Assembly: GCA_003009795.1 (NCBI GenBank)
Contig: PXPE01000001.1
Coordinates: 446,739 to 510,738, forward strand
DNA length: 64,000 nucleotides
Direction: 5' to 3'
Origin: Nanohaloarchaea archaeon SW_7_43_1
GTDB lineage: Archaea; Nanohalarchaeota; Nanosalinia; Nanosalinales; Nanosalinaceae
The notes under the pieces are model-generated. The model was not told the DNA's origin and searched no databases. It was given only the letters and a program-made list of their open reading frames with translations. The position numbers and the translations under genes were made by a program. Below, piece by piece: positions 1,425 through 63,912 of the stretch (its first letter is position 1; every line of letters starts with the position of its first letter).

Positions 1425-1609
1425 GGGTTCGTGGTCTAGTTGGTTATGACACCGCCTTGACACCCGAGAATTCTCGAAGACTGAAGCCAGAGGAGTTTTT
1501 GAACCCTCCGAAACCTAGGTTTCAGCATAGATTCGAGGATAAGAAAAAATATTTGGATTTTCAATGGACAAATTGGCGGAGATCCCCGGTTCGAATCCGG
1601 GCGAACCCA
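1425..1609 (+). tRNA. tRNA-Val(GAC) with 111-nt intron
   Basis: The acceptor stem GGGTTCG (1425-1431) pairs with CGAACCC (1602-1608), with discriminator A1609. The D stem is GTC/GAC, and the T arm is CCGG-type around loop TTCGAAT (1590-1596). The anticodon stem CCGCC (1452-1456) pairs with GGCGG (1575-1579), and the loop TTGACA + T gives anticodon GAC. An intron of about 111 nt (1463-1573) lies at position 37/38 and fits a slightly relaxed bulge-helix-bulge. The intron contains two perfect palindromes, CGAGAATTCTCG at 1465-1476 and GAAACCTAGGTTTC at 1510-1523, so it is probably strongly folded. Confidence 0.93.
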
Positions 1610-6083: not shown

Positions 6084-6217
6084 GCGGTGTTGGTCCAGCG
6101 GCTAAGACTCTGGCCTTCCAAGCCTCAAGTCCTCCGATAAAGAGGATGAGGACAGAGAAGAGGTATGCTCTTCGAAGAAGACAGCCAGCGACCCGGGTTC
6201 GAGTCCCGGACACCGCA
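6084..6217 (+). tRNA. tRNA-Gly(TCC) with 62-nt intron
   Basis: The acceptor GCGGTGT (6084-6090) pairs with ACACCGC (6210-6216), discriminator A6217. The T arm is CCGGG/CCCGG around TTCGAGT (6198-6204). The anticodon stem CTGGC (6110-6114) pairs with GCCAG (6184-6188); the loop CTTCCA + A gives anticodon TCC. The intron 6121-6182 sits at 37/38, with the central helix CTTC (6115-6118) pairing with GAAG (6177-6180). The intron contains hairpins TCCTC/GAGGA and GAAGAG/CTCTTC. A decayed copy of the tRNA 3' end lies 570 bp downstream. Confidence 0.94.
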
Positions 6218-7919: not shown

Positions 7920-9355
7920 CAGATGAACGAGAAGAACGACTTGAACAGCTACGAAATCTCAGAGAAAACGACGAAGCCTACTCCTACAACTTCGACCGAA
8001 GCCATACGGTGGAAGAGCTAAAGGGATTTGATTCGGGAAGTGAGGAAAAACTTCCAGAAGATAACTTTTCGACTGCAGGCAGAGTAATGGAGATCAGAAA
8101 CTTCGGAGAACTAGCGTTCCTCGATCTCAGAGGAGAAAAGGAAGAAGTTCAGGTAATTGTCAGAAATGACGAGGAACTACTGGAAGAAGTTGAGAACCTG
8201 TATGGAGGTGATATAATCGGAGTAGAAGGAACTCTGACATACACAGATAAAGGAGAGTTCTCACTGATGTCAGAGAACTTAGAAGTGCTCTCTCGTGGTG
8301 CGAGGCAAATACCAAAAGAACATTTTGGAGTAGAAGATGAAGAACTGCAGTATCGGGACAGAGCTCTACATCTGATAACAGACATCGATGCTAGAGACAT
8401 TTTCAGAACAAGAAGCCAGGTTATCTCCGAAATCAGAGACTTCCTAGAAGACAGAGAATTTATGGAGGTAGAAACTCCGACAATCCAGCCTGTCTATGGA
8501 GGAGCAGCCGCAGAACCATTCACCACTCACGTCAACGCTCTGGATCAAGAGCATTACCTAAATATTTCGCCAGAGCTATATCTCAAAAGACTGATTATCG
8601 GCGGATACGAGAGAATCTTCGAAATCACGAAGAACTTCAGAAATGAATCTATAGACACGACTCACAACCCGGAGTTCACGATGATGGAAGTATATCAGGC
8701 TTATGCTGACTATGAGGATATGATGGAGCTGATGGAGCAGCTATATGAGCAAGTCGCTGTAGAAGCTACCGGCTCTGCCGAAGTTGAGTATCAAGGGGAA
8801 ACTCTAGATTTCTCTGCTCCCTGGCCTAGAATGACGATGAGAGAAGCCATTCAAGAAAATGGCGGTTTTGATGTAACAGAGCTTAGAGATGAGGAAATTC
8901 GGGAAAGAATGGAAGAACACGGTGCCGAGCTTGACTCAGAATATGAAAGAGGGTTAGCAATAGCAGAACTATTTGAGGAAGTTGCAGAAGAAAACCTGAT
9001 CCAACCTATACACATCATTGACCATCCAGAGGAAACTACTCCTCTATGTATGCAGCACAGGAATGAAGACGGATTAATCGAGAGGTTTGAGTCATTCGCA
9101 GCAGGCATGGAGCTATGTAATGCCTACACCGAACTTCGAGATCCGATCCGGCAGAGAAACCTGTTTGAGGATGAGCAGCGAAGGCAGGAAGAAGGCGATG
9201 ATGAAGCACATCCAATTGACATGGACTTTCTCAAAGCACTTGAGCTTGGTATGCCGCCAACCGGAGGACTCGGAATCGGTATAGGAAGGATGGTGATGCT
9301 GATGACAGACCAAGAGTCTATTAGAGATGTGCTGCTATTTCCGATGATGAGGTAG
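7916..9355 (+). CDS. lysS: Lysyl-tRNA synthetase, class II
   Basis: A 479-residue class II enzyme that charges tRNA-Lys. An N-terminal OB-fold anticodon-binding domain (about 45-135, FSTAGRVMEIRNFGELAFLD) is followed by the class II catalytic core: motif 1 near FLEDREFMEVETPTIQPVYG, motif 2 FEITKNFRNES, and motif 3 GIGIGRMVMLMT at the C-terminus. Many archaea use the unrelated class I LysRS; the class II form here is the bacterial/eukaryotic type. The preceding small ORF overlaps it by four bases. Confidence 0.97.
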   Translation: MTDEREERLEQLRNLRENDEAYSYNFDRSHTVEELKGFDSGSEEKLPEDNFSTAGRVMEIRNFGELAFLDLRGEKEEVQVIVRNDEELLEEVENLYGGDIIGVEGTLTYTDKGEFSLMSENLEVLSRGARQIPKEHFGVEDEELQYRDRALHLITDIDARDIFRTRSQVISEIRDFLEDREFMEVETPTIQPVYGGAAAEPFTTHVNALDQEHYLNISPELYLKRLIIGGYERIFEITKNFRNESIDTTHNPEFTMMEVYQAYADYEDMMELMEQLYEQVAVEATGSAEVEYQGETLDFSAPWPRMTMREAIQENGGFDVTELRDEEIRERMEEHGAELDSEYERGLAIAELFEEVAEENLIQPIHIIDHPEETTPLCMQHRNEDGLIERFESFAAGMELCNAYTELRDPIRQRNLFEDEQRRQEEGDDEAHPIDMDFLKALELGMPPTGGLGIGIGRMVMLMTDQESIRDVLLFPMMR

Positions 9356-58993: not shown

Positions 58994-59122
58994 GCTCCAC
59001 TAGCTCAGTGGTTAGAGCACCGTCCTTATACGGATCTTGTATCGAAATAATTGCTGAGATAAGCCGATGCACTGGCCTCCTAAGCGAGGCGGCGGTCCCG
59101 GGTTCGAGTCCCGGGTGGAGCA
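58994..59122 (+). tRNA. tRNA-Ile(TAT) with 56-nt intron
   Basis: The acceptor GCTCCAC (58994-59000) pairs with GTGGAGC (59115-59121), discriminator A59122. The D arm is GCTC/GAGC and the T arm is CCGGG/CCCGG around TTCGAGT. The anticodon stem CCGTC (59020-59024) pairs with GGCGG (59088-59092). The intron 59031-59086 fits a canonical bulge-helix-bulge: CTTA (59025-59028) pairs with TAAG (59081-59084), then GGA/TCC. Splicing gives loop CTTATAA and anticodon TAT. The acceptor and loop resemble eukaryotic tRNA-Ile(UAU). Most archaea read AUA with an agmatidine-modified CAU tRNA instead. Confidence 0.9.
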
Positions 59123-59564: not shown

Positions 59565-60923
59565 ATGAAAGAGTTCGACCTAATTGTAATTGGTGCGGGC
59601 TCCGGTCTTGAAGTGGCTTCGGGGTACGCAAACAGAGGAAATGATGTGGCTGTAATCGAGCCTGGACCATTAGGAGGCACATGTCTCAATAGAGGCTGCA
59701 TTCCATCGAAAATGTTGATTCACAGAGCCGATGTTGCAGAGGAAATACGAGGTTCGGAAAAATTTGGTGTAGAATCTGAAATTAATGATATAGATTTTAA
59801 TTGCATAATTGAAGAGATAAACTCTGAAGTCTCCGGTGATGCCGAGAACATCAAGAAAGGACTGGAGAACTCAGACAGACACACTCTTTTTAGGGAAGAA
59901 GCCGAGTTTGTCGACGAGAAATTACTTGAAGTCGGAGATGAGGAGATTGCTTCCGAAAAAATAGTCATTGCCGCAGGTTCAAGGCCTTTCAAACCGCCGA
60001 TTGACGGTTTGGATGAAATTCACTACTGGACCTCAAAAGAAGCTTTAAACCCTGATTACCGCCCGGAAAGACTCATTATGATTGGTGGAGGCTATATCTC
60101 ACTGGAGCTGGCTCACTTCTACGATGCGATGGGAACGGATGTAACTATACTTGAGAGAGGGGACAAGTTACTGAAAAGAGAGGACAGCGATATATCAGGA
60201 AAAATTACAGAGATAGCAAAAAGAAGATACAATGTAAATCTTGGGCTTCCAGCCACCGAAGTTAGAGAAAAGGATGGTGAAAAGATTGTAGTTGCCGAGA
60301 CTGAGGACGGAGAACAAAAGGATTTCCGTACCGATGAGTTACTGGTCGCAGCCGGCCGAGTATCGAACACTGATAAACTGAACGTAGAGGAACAAGGCTT
60401 TGAAACTACGGATGGAGGTTTCCTGAAAACAGATGAACATATGGAGACAAATGTTGAAGGGGTCTACGCTCTGGGAGATATCGCTGATAACTGGATGTTC
60501 AAACATTCAGCTAATTACGAGGCAGGAACTGTTTACCGAAATATCGTAACCGATAATGACTACGAGGTCGGTCAAGTAGAAATGCCTCACGCAGTATTTA
60601 CATCTCCGCAGATAGCCAGTATCGGTAAGACGGAGCAGGAACTGAATGAAGATGGAACGGATTATGTCAAATCCAAATACGATTACTCTGACACCGGTAT
60701 GGGAATGGCGCTGAAAGCAGAGAATGGATACGTGAAACTTCTTGCATCTGAAAAGGGCAAAATACTTGGCTGCCATATCATCGGACCGGAGGCCTCAACT
60801 CTTATCCACGAAGTGATAGTCGCTAAGCAGTCCGGATCCGGCAATATCTCGGATATAAAAGATGCGATTCATGTTCATCCTGCACTGAGTGAAGTGGTGC
60901 AAAGGGCTTTCAATCAGATCTAA
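59565..60923 (+). CDS. Class I pyridine-nucleotide disulfide oxidoreductase
   Basis: A 452-residue FAD enzyme of the lipoamide dehydrogenase/mercuric reductase family. FAD site IVIGAGSGLEVASGYAN, redox disulfide GGTCLNRGCIPSKML (C-x4-C), NAD(P) site MIGGGYISLELAHFYD, YALGDIADN and the C-terminal HPALSEVVQRAF with active-site His. There is no 2-oxoacid dehydrogenase operon around it; the neighbours are a membrane thioredoxin, CcdA and Msr enzymes, so a role in supplying reducing power to a thiol carrier is the best inference. The substrate is not proved. Confidence 0.93.
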   Translation: MKEFDLIVIGAGSGLEVASGYANRGNDVAVIEPGPLGGTCLNRGCIPSKMLIHRADVAEEIRGSEKFGVESEINDIDFNCIIEEINSEVSGDAENIKKGLENSDRHTLFREEAEFVDEKLLEVGDEEIASEKIVIAAGSRPFKPPIDGLDEIHYWTSKEALNPDYRPERLIMIGGGYISLELAHFYDAMGTDVTILERGDKLLKREDSDISGKITEIAKRRYNVNLGLPATEVREKDGEKIVVAETEDGEQKDFRTDELLVAAGRVSNTDKLNVEEQGFETTDGGFLKTDEHMETNVEGVYALGDIADNWMFKHSANYEAGTVYRNIVTDNDYEVGQVEMPHAVFTSPQIASIGKTEQELNEDGTDYVKSKYDYSDTGMGMALKAENGYVKLLASEKGKILGCHIIGPEASTLIHEVIVAKQSGSGNISDIKDAIHVHPALSEVVQRAFNQI

Positions 60924-60974
60924 TCCAGGTAAGCAGTGAAGTTATAACAAATGAATGATTATTTATGACTATTG

Positions 60975-61514
60975 ATGAACCCGGATTTTAATTTTGATAC
61001 AAAACAGCATCTTGCTGTAGTTCTGGTTCTCCTGTTCTCACTGACAGGTGCCTATATTCTGTTTGATTCTCAGGAATTAAATACTCGGGAAAATATAGAT
61101 TGGAAACAGGTTGAACTGGAGGACGTTAGATCCGGCGAGACCTATACTGTTGCAGAACTTGAGAAACCTGTTCTGATAGAGACTTTTGCCGTATGGTGTA
61201 CGACATGTACAAAACAGCAAAAGGAGACTCAGGAATTCCACAGTAAGTCAGAAGTGACTTCTGTTTCTCTGAATGTTGACCCGGAAGAAGACAGGGAGAA
61301 TATACAAGAACATCTGAATCGACATGGTTTTGACTGGAGATACTCTATCTCACCGACTTCTCTGACACGTTCGCTTATTTCAGATCATGGTCGGGTAATG
61401 GTGAATCCGCCATCTGCTCCAATGGTGCTCGTATGTAAGGATGGTGAACGTAAACTGCCGACAGGTGTGAAACCGGTATCTAAACTACATGAAGAAGTAG
61501 AGAAGGGATGTTGA
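60975..61514 (+). CDS. Membrane-anchored thioredoxin (TlpA-like)
   Basis: A 179-residue protein with an N-terminal membrane helix (about 12-31) and an outward-facing thioredoxin domain with WCTTC (C75, C78) and a later NPPSAPMVLV that fits the cis-Pro site. ATG at 60975 is used; TTG 60972 would add one residue. It is followed 1 bp later by ccdA, which in bacteria reduces such proteins. Probable function: carry electrons from CcdA to MsrA/MsrB outside the cell. Confidence 0.88.
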   Translation: MNPDFNFDTKQHLAVVLVLLFSLTGAYILFDSQELNTRENIDWKQVELEDVRSGETYTVAELEKPVLIETFAVWCTTCTKQQKETQEFHSKSEVTSVSLNVDPEEDRENIQEHLNRHGFDWRYSISPTSLTRSLISDHGRVMVNPPSAPMVLVCKDGERKLPTGVKPVSKLHEEVEKGC

Positions 61515-61515
61515 G

Positions 61516-62187
61516 ATGGTAGTTGGAGAGCTCAGCAGTTCTTTCGTTCTAGGTCTTTTAACTCCGTTGACTGCTGCATGTGTATTACCGCTTTATCCGG
61601 GATATATCTCTTATCTGTCGAAGCAGTTTTCAGGCGAAGAGTCACAGAAAACCTATGCACTTTTCGGAGTAGTTGTGGTCGGAGGAGTGATGAGTTTCAT
61701 GTTGGGTTTAGGCTTAATTTTCTCGGCTCTTTTACAGCTGTCTTTAACCAGCGTTATAGAAACTGTTTCTCCATTAGCTTTTGGTTTACTGGGAATGATG
61801 AGTATAGCGCTAATAATTGATCTGGATATCGGTTCTCAGTCATCAGGCTTTGAAGGTCCTGAATTCGATAATCCTTTGGCTAGTGCATATGGATTTGGTT
61901 TTTTCTTTGGGGCGATTATAATACCATGCAATCCTGCTTTTATCTCAGTGTTTTTCGCTAGAGCGTTTCTCTTTGATACTCCTATTTCAAGTCTCATGAA
62001 TTTCACTGCTTTTGGTTTGGGAATAGGCTTTCCTTTACTGTTTTTCTCTCTTGCATCCTCTAGGTGGAGTGATAGAATTATTTCTGTGTTGAAAAGGTAT
62101 GAAACGGAGATAAACAGGGTTTCGGGTCTGGTTATGCTGGCGGTCTCAGTTTACTATCTGGTATTTGTTTTCCAGATACTGGGATAG
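61516..62187 (+). CDS. ccdA: Thiol-disulfide transporter CcdA
   Basis: A 223-residue membrane protein with six helices. The two redox Cys residues are in the family's places: LTPLTAACVLPLYPGY (C22) and IIIPCNPAF (C138). CcdA takes electrons from cytoplasmic thioredoxin and passes them to outward-facing thioredoxins. It starts 1 bp after the membrane thioredoxin stop, so the pair is an operon. It converges with msrA. Confidence 0.94.
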   Translation: MVVGELSSSFVLGLLTPLTAACVLPLYPGYISYLSKQFSGEESQKTYALFGVVVVGGVMSFMLGLGLIFSALLQLSLTSVIETVSPLAFGLLGMMSIALIIDLDIGSQSSGFEGPEFDNPLASAYGFGFFFGAIIIPCNPAFISVFFARAFLFDTPISSLMNFTAFGLGIGFPLLFFSLASSRWSDRIISVLKRYETEINRVSGLVMLAVSVYYLVFVFQILG

Positions 62188-62188
62188 A

Positions 62189-62881
62189 TCAGCTGATTGG
62201 GCTTTTCTCCCAGACTCTTTCAACAAATCCTTTCCTGCCGGAAGCTTGTTCATAGGCCTTATACTGTAACGTGTTTTTTTCAGAATAGTTCTGGTGTTTG
62301 CTCTCAGCTCTGTAAAACTCTGAAGCGTTCAAAACTTCTGTTACAATTTCTTCCTCAAACTTCCCGCTCTCGCTCAAGTTCTCTTTGGAAGCCTTTGCTA
62401 AACTATACTGCTTGTCGTTATGCGTGTATATTGCTGTTGTATACTGGTATCCTCTATCTGAGAACTGTCCTCCTTCATCAGTTGGATTGATGCTTTTCCA
62501 GTACATGTCAAGTAGTTCTTCGTAGGATATGACTGAAGGATAGTAATTCACTCTCACAGCCTCTCGGTGATCAGTATCTCCTATTAAAACCTGATCGTAT
62601 GTTGCCGTAGATTCTTTTCCTCCTGTATAACCTGAAACTGCTGATTCAATACCTTTTTCATTCTCGTAGACGGCCTCGATACACCAGAAACATCCACCGG
62701 CAAAAGTAGCTTCTACAGGTTCCTTGCTATCTAAATTTTCTCTCCATTCAGTATTTGCTTGACTGTCTTTTTGATCCTCTGTTTCAAGTACTTCTGATAT
62801 ATTTACAGAAGAGTTGACCGTTGATCCAAGTGCTATTCCAAGTATCAGAATAAGAAATAATGAAATCAGCAGCTTACTCAT
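62189..62881 (-). CDS. msrA: Exported peptide methionine sulfoxide reductase MsrA
   Basis: A 230-residue protein. Residues 1-20 are a hydrophobic signal or anchor; residues about 55-220 are the MsrA domain with GGCFWC (C64, C67), ESAVSGYTGG, DHREAVRVNYYP and GYQYTTAIY. MsrA repairs the S-form of methionine sulfoxide. The N-terminal segment puts the enzyme on the outer face of the membrane. It lies in the island with ccdA and msrB. The resolving Cys near the C-terminus of some MsrA proteins is not seen. Confidence 0.95.
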   Translation of the reverse strand: MSKLLISLFLILILGIALGSTVNSSVNISEVLETEDQKDSQANTEWRENLDSKEPVEATFAGGCFWCIEAVYENEKGIESAVSGYTGGKESTATYDQVLIGDTDHREAVRVNYYPSVISYEELLDMYWKSINPTDEGGQFSDRGYQYTTAIYTHNDKQYSLAKASKENLSESGKFEEEIVTEVLNASEFYRAESKHQNYSEKNTLQYKAYEQASGRKGFVERVWEKSPIS

Positions 62882-62938
62882 AGTATGACTCTGGTTTAAT
62901 GACCTAAAACTTTATTGGCGCCAGAAATAAGTTTTATT

Positions 62939-63274
62939 ATGGATTTGAAAGCTGATACTATTCCTTTTCATGGAGCCAAGAGCGATTCCGAGATCGTGAT
63001 CGAGATATATGTAGTGACGGGAAAACACTCTTTTTTCAGTATTCCGGAAAGCTTCTGCAAAGAATGTAATATGTCTTATCATGCAGCAAAGGAGGCAGCA
63101 GATCATGTCGATGTGGAAGTGGATATAAGGGTTAAATCTTACTGGACACGTTTCTTGAGACCTTTACTGAAGGGCGGGTTTCATCCTCCTGTAATTATTG
63201 TAGACGACAAACTGTTTTCTCAGGGATATGATGTTCCTGAGGTAGAATCACTGGTTGATGAGATTGAAAACTAG
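62939..63274 (+). CDS. Glutaredoxin-like redox protein with CKEC motif
   Basis: About 111 residues. IVIEIYVVTGKHSFF then FCKECN (C40, C43) and GGFHPPVIIVDDKLFSQGYD, which fits the strand, CxxC helix and cis-Pro order of a glutaredoxin/thioredoxin fold. No signal or membrane helix is seen, so it is probably cytoplasmic. ATG 62939 is chosen over a longer frame at 62915. Likely a thiol carrier linked to the reductase at 59565, but unproved. Confidence 0.78.
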   Translation: MDLKADTIPFHGAKSDSEIVIEIYVVTGKHSFFSIPESFCKECNMSYHAAKEAADHVDVEVDIRVKSYWTRFLRPLLKGGFHPPVIIVDDKLFSQGYDVPEVESLVDEIEN

Positions 63275-63912
63275 TTTTCAGATTCAAACATATCGCTGTA
63301 TTCTCCATAGCCTTTCTCCTCTAGTTTGTCAGCAGGGATAAACTCCAGTGCTGCACTGTTCATACAGTATCTAAGATTTGTAGGAGTATCTGGATGTTCG
63401 AAGAGATGCCCAAGATGGCTTCTGGCATGTTTACTTGCGATTTCAACTCTTACACCGAAAGGTCCAGGATCTTTCCTTTCAACGATATTTTTGGGTTCCA
63501 GAGGCTTGTAGAAGCTCGGCCAACCGGTACCACTATCGAACTTATGTTTGCTGGAGAATAGGGGTTCCCCACTAACTACATCAATATAGATGCCCGGTCT
63601 CTTCTCATCGTATAGCTCGTTTTTGAATGGTGGTTCTGTACCGTTTTGCTGAGTTACATGATATTCTCTCTTCGAGAGACTTTCTATCTCCTCATTGTAG
63701 TCGTTCTTAGCCCGGAAATCACTGTTATTAGAATTATTGCCTGGCTTTTCGTCGCTAAATCTTGTGTCTTCGAGATTGATATTTTGGGTTCCTGTCATCC
63801 ATGCTATTCCTGATCCCAGTTGTTGGTGGAATATTCCGATCGCTGTAACCGTAACTATGAAAACTAGGACTAGGACTATTTTATGATTGTGAAGAGCTTC
63901 TAAAATTTCCAT
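63271..63912 (-). CDS. msrB: Exported methionine sulfoxide reductase MsrB, no zinc Cys
   Basis: A 213-residue protein. A membrane helix (about 11-29) is followed by a spacer and the MsrB domain (about 75-200): YHVTQQNGTEPPF, GEPLFSSKHKFDSGTGWPSF, HLGHLF and RYCMNSAALEF with the catalytic C183. Both zinc CxxC pairs of typical MsrB are absent, and C183 is the only Cys in the protein, so it is a one-Cys MsrB. It repairs the R-form of methionine sulfoxide, outside the membrane. Confidence 0.94.
   Translation of the reverse strand: MEILEALHNHKIVLVLVFIVTVTAIGIFHQQLGSGIAWMTGTQNINLEDTRFSDEKPGNNSNNSDFRAKNDYNEEIESLSKREYHVTQQNGTEPPFKNELYDEKRPGIYIDVVSGEPLFSSKHKFDSGTGWPSFYKPLEPKNIVERKDPGPFGVRVEIASKHARSHLGHLFEHPDTPTNLRYCMNSAALEFIPADKLEEKGYGEYSDMFESEN

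Follow-up and report, generated by a model that had tools for sequence, protein, structure and literature searches.

A gene cluster in a nanohaloarchaeal genome, located at positions 59,565-63,912 of the window (the whole stretch of 64,000 nucleotides that was analysed; G000:C1:446739-510738 of a single-contig genome of 956,550 bp, hereafter G000), probably encodes an extracytoplasmic relay for repair of methionine sulfoxide (MetO). The cluster includes genes for a flavin disulfide reductase (flavoprotein), a membrane thioredoxin (TRX), CcdA, a soluble protein with a CKEC motif (CKEC) and the methionine sulfoxide reductases (Msr) MsrA and MsrB (Table 1). The six open reading frames (ORFs), including their strands and cysteines, were confirmed at the positions given in the original prediction. 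The nearest named relatives are nanohaloarchaeal metagenome-assembled genomes (MAGs), with MsrB identity of 87% in SW_4_43_9 and 62% in Nanosalinarum J07AB56.

For every electron-transfer step, as well as for the role of CKEC and the substrates, we infer the following route. Electrons of cytoplasmic NAD(P)H would be passed by the cell's thioredoxin reductase to a cytoplasmic thioredoxin-type protein, most likely CKEC, and reduced CKEC would then reduce the CcdA cysteine pair from inside. CcdA would carry the electrons across the membrane to the surface-anchored TRX (WCTTC), which would in turn act on both anchored enzymes, reducing the disulfide between Cys64 and Cys67 in MsrA and the oxidised Cys183, the single cysteine, in MsrB. 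Between them, MsrA and MsrB would repair exported proteins carrying either diastereomer of MetO. Computation itself establishes the proteins with their motifs, the fold of TRX, the hydrophobic N-termini, the co-occurrence and the soluble MsrA and MsrB elsewhere in the genome.

Predicted placement of MsrA, MsrB and TRX

The window genome has two MsrA and two MsrB; the copies in the cluster bear an N-terminal hydrophobic segment and the other copies do not. Cysteine contents also differ between the two forms. In the membrane MsrA of the phylum (n = 4), the GCFWC pair contains the only cysteines kept. The six membrane MsrB have one cysteine each, whereas soluble MsrB retain zinc-type CxxC pairs; instead of the two CxxC zinc-binding pairs of zinc-type MsrB, the window MsrB has only Cys183. 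Potential glycosylation sites (sequons, N-x-S/T; expected counts from shuffling) are enriched in membrane MsrA (21 seen vs 6.7 expected) and membrane MsrB (23 vs 9.4), but not in the soluble paralogues (MsrA, 1 vs 6.7; MsrB, 2 vs 5.6). Three MsrA sequons stand at matching places in all four membrane MsrA, and a match to STT3/AglB is present in the window genome. The MsrB sequons are weaker evidence of export, because the NGTEPP sequon is also found in a bacterial MsrB (L015). Summed over the proteins, the charges flanking the membrane segments follow the positive-inside rule (K/R, 32 inside and 6 outside; D/E, 21 inside and 39 outside). The genome G018 provides a natural control: its MsrA, which is sister to the membrane clade, has neither anchor nor sequon, and this genome has neither CcdA nor TRX.

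The predicted location of the MsrA and MsrB domains outside the cell is based on the N-terminal membrane segments, the charge bias, the sequon enrichment of MsrA, the loss of zinc cysteines from MsrB and the presence of separate soluble MsrA and MsrB genes. Exported activities of both enzymes are accordingly a matter of prediction, from Pfam matches, membrane segments, sequons and charge bias.

In an AlphaFold model of TRX, the predicted local distance difference test (pLDDT) score exceeds 90 from residue 41 on. The PDB structures that it matches are for the most part thioredoxins exported by bacteria (StoA, ResA, TlpA, DsbF and Neisseria 3raz), with the pneumococcal membrane-anchored 4evm among them. 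TRX is predicted from its hydrophobic N-terminus and this fold to be an exported TlpA/ResA-type thioredoxin. It has one hydrophobic segment and no cysteine near it, i.e., the lipobox cysteine is absent. Residue numbers refer to the ATG start at 60975; a TTG is also present at 60972. Two extra cysteines, C154 in a late strand and C179 as the last residue, are common to 7/7 TRX homologues, and a second disulfide between them is plausible. CcdA has the two transmembrane (TM) cysteines of its type, and these are invariant in five relatives.

Co-occurrence with CcdA across the phylum

Association of the cluster genes was analysed in 28 genomes of the phylum, with hypergeometric P values. CcdA is present in five (G000, G016, G021, G003 and G024), and the phylum-wide search for it found no further genome outside the class. 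Membrane MsrB is present in all five and in G027 (P = 6e-5), membrane MsrA in four genomes (P = 2.4e-4), and CKEC in four, with a remnant in G027 (P = 2.4e-4). TRX is found in the five CcdA genomes, with a 36% relative in G023. The co-occurrence is not explained by close relatedness, as each of these five genomes is from a different genus and two families are represented. Of all partners of CcdA, the Msr genes occur with it most constantly.

In the window, the flavoprotein, TRX and CcdA genes have the same direction, with the flavoprotein stop codon 51 bp before the TRX ATG and a spacing of one base between TRX and CcdA. MsrA is convergent with CcdA, CKEC is divergent from MsrA with 57 bp between the ATGs, and the 3' ends of CKEC and MsrB share 4 bp. 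Because of these opposing directions, a single transcript is impossible, and the cluster is not one operon. In G021, TRX-CcdA-MsrB-MsrA all run in one direction. In G016, TRX-CcdA is followed by MsrA, a PEMT-like gene and MsrB on the opposite strand. In G003, TRX-CcdA-CKEC-DUF3179-MsrB run in one direction and MsrA is on a separate contig. Both genetic linkage and co-occurrence, which characterize a CcdA-thioredoxin-Msr pathway, are thus seen. The idea of the original prediction that CcdA and a membrane thioredoxin supply electrons to anchored, outward-facing MsrA and MsrB is well supported by co-occurrence and by the predicted topology: in relatives the genes co-occur with their order partly kept, and the Msr domains are predicted to be outside rather than cytoplasmic.

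These loci contain further genes. In G016 (L119 7918-9819), the gene between MsrA and MsrB encodes a PEMT-like methyltransferase, and a DUF547 protein overlaps the MsrB start. In G021 (L120 4072-5891), the region directly upstream of TRX-CcdA-MsrB-MsrA encodes another CcdA, which resembles bacterial ones more closely, and a TlpA-like protein with Thioredoxin_10. DUF3179 occurs in only 3/28 genomes (L122 4273-5382, L121 8409-9521 and L124 5037-5651), each time beside TRX, CcdA or CKEC. It was rejected as a universal part of the relay, being absent from the window genome, and is possibly a further client.

CcdA-TRX might instead be a general extracytoplasmic disulfide-reducing system, with DUF3179 and disulfide repair among its clients and MsrA and MsrB as only some clients or mere neighbours. 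The second CcdA and TlpA-like pair of G021 would fit such a system, as would the location of DUF3179, a redox family that includes bacterial selenoproteins (PMC9312934), which adjoins TRX, CcdA or CKEC in all three genomes having it. However, the window genome lacks DUF3179 and the constancy of the Msr genes points the other way, so that this alternative is rather unlikely. A role connected with cytochrome c is also unlikely, as respiratory complexes are missing from related nanohaloarchaea (PMC10266531).

Several points weigh against the proposed Msr relay. Hydrophobicity gives a rough topology, and some individual proteins, MsrB and TRX of the window among them, have a weak charge at the N-terminus. 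G024 has TRX-CcdA at one place and CKEC-MsrB at another, and membrane MsrA was not found there; CKEC is absent from G016. The strongest point against a strict dependence of MsrB on the relay is G027, a same-genus MAG in which a single deletion of ~2.2 kb joins the TRX start to the CKEC tail (L126, G027:C41, about 8890-9000). The junction and remnants are readable, and the deletion removed TRX, CcdA, MsrA and most of CKEC. The flavoprotein gene is left and MsrB is intact, with a ratio of nonsynonymous to synonymous substitution rates (dN/dS) of about 0.17, compared with 0.15 for the flavoprotein.

This retention of MsrB would be consistent with anchored Msr that lie outside but are reduced by other thiols (host or small thiols), CcdA-TRX not being a required donor. 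We consider this very improbable in view of the co-occurrence of MsrB and MsrA with CcdA. In addition, the G027 deletion may be recent, in which case the dN/dS would mostly reflect earlier selection, and the G027 assembly is 77% complete.

Entry of electrons and neighbouring genes

CKEC, taken in the original prediction as a cytoplasmic protein, has no hydrophobic segment; its role was underrated there, as it is now a candidate donor to CcdA. CKEC alone has a weak Thioredoxin_3 match (E 0.0033), and its model (pLDDT 74.6) matches thioredoxins at E about 0.01 with TM scores of about 0.4-0.5; a profile comparison of CKEC with PDB sequences gave no match. From this model, CKEC is likely, though not certain, to have a thioredoxin-like fold. 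In G003 and G021, the CKEC domain forms the end of a longer protein, in which four membrane segments are predicted (in G021, only three of them pass the threshold), and the fused gene of G003 overlaps the CcdA end. Four segments and a basic first internal loop suggest that the CKEC domain of the fused proteins would face the cytoplasm. The TM domain linked to CKEC was rejected by eye as VKOR, as its two copies have no TM cysteines that are conserved. CKEC would be the best candidate electron donor to CcdA because it is thioredoxin-like, is fused in relatives to a cytoplasm-facing membrane domain and occurs once in the run TRX-CcdA-CKEC-DUF3179-MsrB.

The flavoprotein had been proposed as the dedicated electron source of the full chain, and its gene indeed precedes TRX by 51 bp in the window; in G016, its distance to MsrB is about 1.3 kb. 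However, orthologues (>480 bits) are present in 18/28 genomes, 13 of which lack CcdA (P = 0.087), and it was rejected as a core relay part. Among NCBIfam models, it scores best with lipoamide and mycothione reductases, in each case under the equivalog cut-off (586 vs 634 bits and 419 vs 501 bits). It is of the lipoamide/mycothione/glutathione reductase type, a family acting on small disulfides and not on thioredoxin. A function as a small-disulfide reductase, e.g., of bis-gamma-glutamylcystine, would be at least as likely, and a thioredoxin-reductase-like ORF with CxxC is located elsewhere (G000:C1:679574-680563). The chain with this flavoprotein as its dedicated source therefore seems scarcely probable.

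An exported subtilase (S8) is encoded just past the window end (G000:C1:510741-512030), where its gene immediately precedes MsrB in the same orientation, as it does in G027. An oxidation-prone Met adjoins the active Ser in its GTSMA motif, and the subtilase is a possible substrate of the repair system. Four tRNA genes are located at window positions 1425-1609, 2101-2265, 6084-6217 and 58994-59122; as the matches span 129-185 bp, all four seem to carry long introns.

Table 1. Genes of the cluster and an adjacent gene, in window coordinates.
Feature	Position	Strand	Characteristics
Possible DNA-binding regulator, 116 aa	59132..59482	+	No Pfam or NCBIfam match; 94% conserved in G027
Flavin disulfide reductase; neighbouring gene	59565..60923	+	CxxxxC at 40/45; Pyr_redox_2 195.8 bits; Pyr_redox_dim
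TRX, predicted surface-anchored TlpA/ResA-type thioredoxin	60975..61514	+	WCTTC, C75/C78; hydrophobic segment near N-terminus; model
CcdA, membrane thiol-electron carrier	61516..62187	+	C22/C138; DsbD_TM 29.7 bits (cut-off 27.1); six hydrophobic segments
MsrA with N-terminal membrane segment	62189..62881	-	PMSR 186 bits; GCFWC, C64/C67; hydrophobic segment 4-22; five sequons
CKEC, soluble, thioredoxin-like; candidate cytoplasmic donor to CcdA	62939 (ATG) or 62915 (TTG)..63274	+	Weak Thioredoxin_3; model; no hydrophobic segment
MsrB with N-terminal membrane segment	63271..63912	-	SelR 141 bits; hydrophobic segment 12-30; single Cys C183; no zinc site

Origin and relation to known systems

In small trees, membrane MsrA and MsrB are separated from their soluble nanohaloarchaeal paralogues and group with bacterial MsrAB fusions among other bacteria, with supports of 92 for MsrA and 99 for MsrB in the Shimodaira-Hasegawa-like approximate likelihood ratio test (SH-aLRT). 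In the MsrA tree as in the MsrB tree, fused MsrAB of Spirochaetales (L016) and Paenibacillus (L018) are the closest relatives from bacteria. The Spirochaetales protein has a signal-like N-terminal segment but is fused, unlike the split pair of the window. A bacterial origin of the membrane MsrA and MsrB is likely, and fission of a fused MsrAB is possible; the bacterial sequences came from a pattern-limited search, so that the origin is to be taken as a lead. Beside the bacterial fused MsrAB, no gene related to CcdA or TRX of the window was found, and a comparison of TRX and CcdA with plasmids gave no match and no source. G003, which belongs to another family, nests among the other membrane Msr; together with the patchy distribution, this suggests transfer between nanohaloarchaea.

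A fuller scenario, to be held tentatively and with some doubt, is that a dedicated cytoplasm-facing CKEC, soluble here and tethered in relatives, donates electrons to CcdA, and that the split MsrA and MsrB arose by fission from a bacterial exported fused MsrAB and spread horizontally among ectosymbionts, shielding the surface from oxidants around aerobic hosts. The proposed relay offers a concrete, testable electron route for MetO repair outside an archaeal cell, with CKEC as a new candidate for the donor domain and DUF3179 possibly as another client. It also suggests that, for fermentative nanohaloarchaea on aerobic hosts, damage to the surface by oxidants is of importance.

In the Neisseria PilB type, exported thioredoxin, MsrA and MsrB act together in one fusion, whereas three separate ORFs are present here. 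Archaeal Msr with TM segments or Sec/TAT signals have been reviewed, with archaeal disulfide relays not yet linked to Msr (Maupin-Furlow, 2018; PMC6211008). Novelty in an archaeon, as implied by the original prediction, is therefore to be qualified; here, TRX and CcdA are linked to Msr by neighbourhood and co-occurrence. In part of a nanohaloarchaeal genome paper, MsrA is placed under thioredoxin redox homeostasis, with no surface location mentioned in that part (PMC10266531). A literature search for a nanohaloarchaeal CcdA-Msr link found none, and as far as found such a relay has not been tied together before in archaea.

The closest parallels are the streptococcal CcdA-Etrx-MsrAB pathways, for which there is experimental evidence from mutants and enzyme assays (S. 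pneumoniae, PMC3914529; S. gordonii, PMC7034828). Like the CcdA-Etrx-SpMsrAB2 pathway, the cluster combines CcdA, a surface TlpA-type thioredoxin and anchored MsrA and MsrB in linked genes, with a separate intracellular Msr. Unlike in SpMsrAB2, MsrA and MsrB are separate and each has its own anchor, and unlike the streptococcal lipoprotein thioredoxin, TRX is TM-anchored; CKEC is an addition, and the host is an archaeon. Fused MsrAB and a lipoprotein thioredoxin, neither of which is found here, are features of the SpMsrAB2 instance rather than of the pathway type. By analogy, the cluster would work like the streptococcal pathway; what sets this archaeal variant apart is its split Msr, the TM anchor of its thioredoxin and the candidate new donor.

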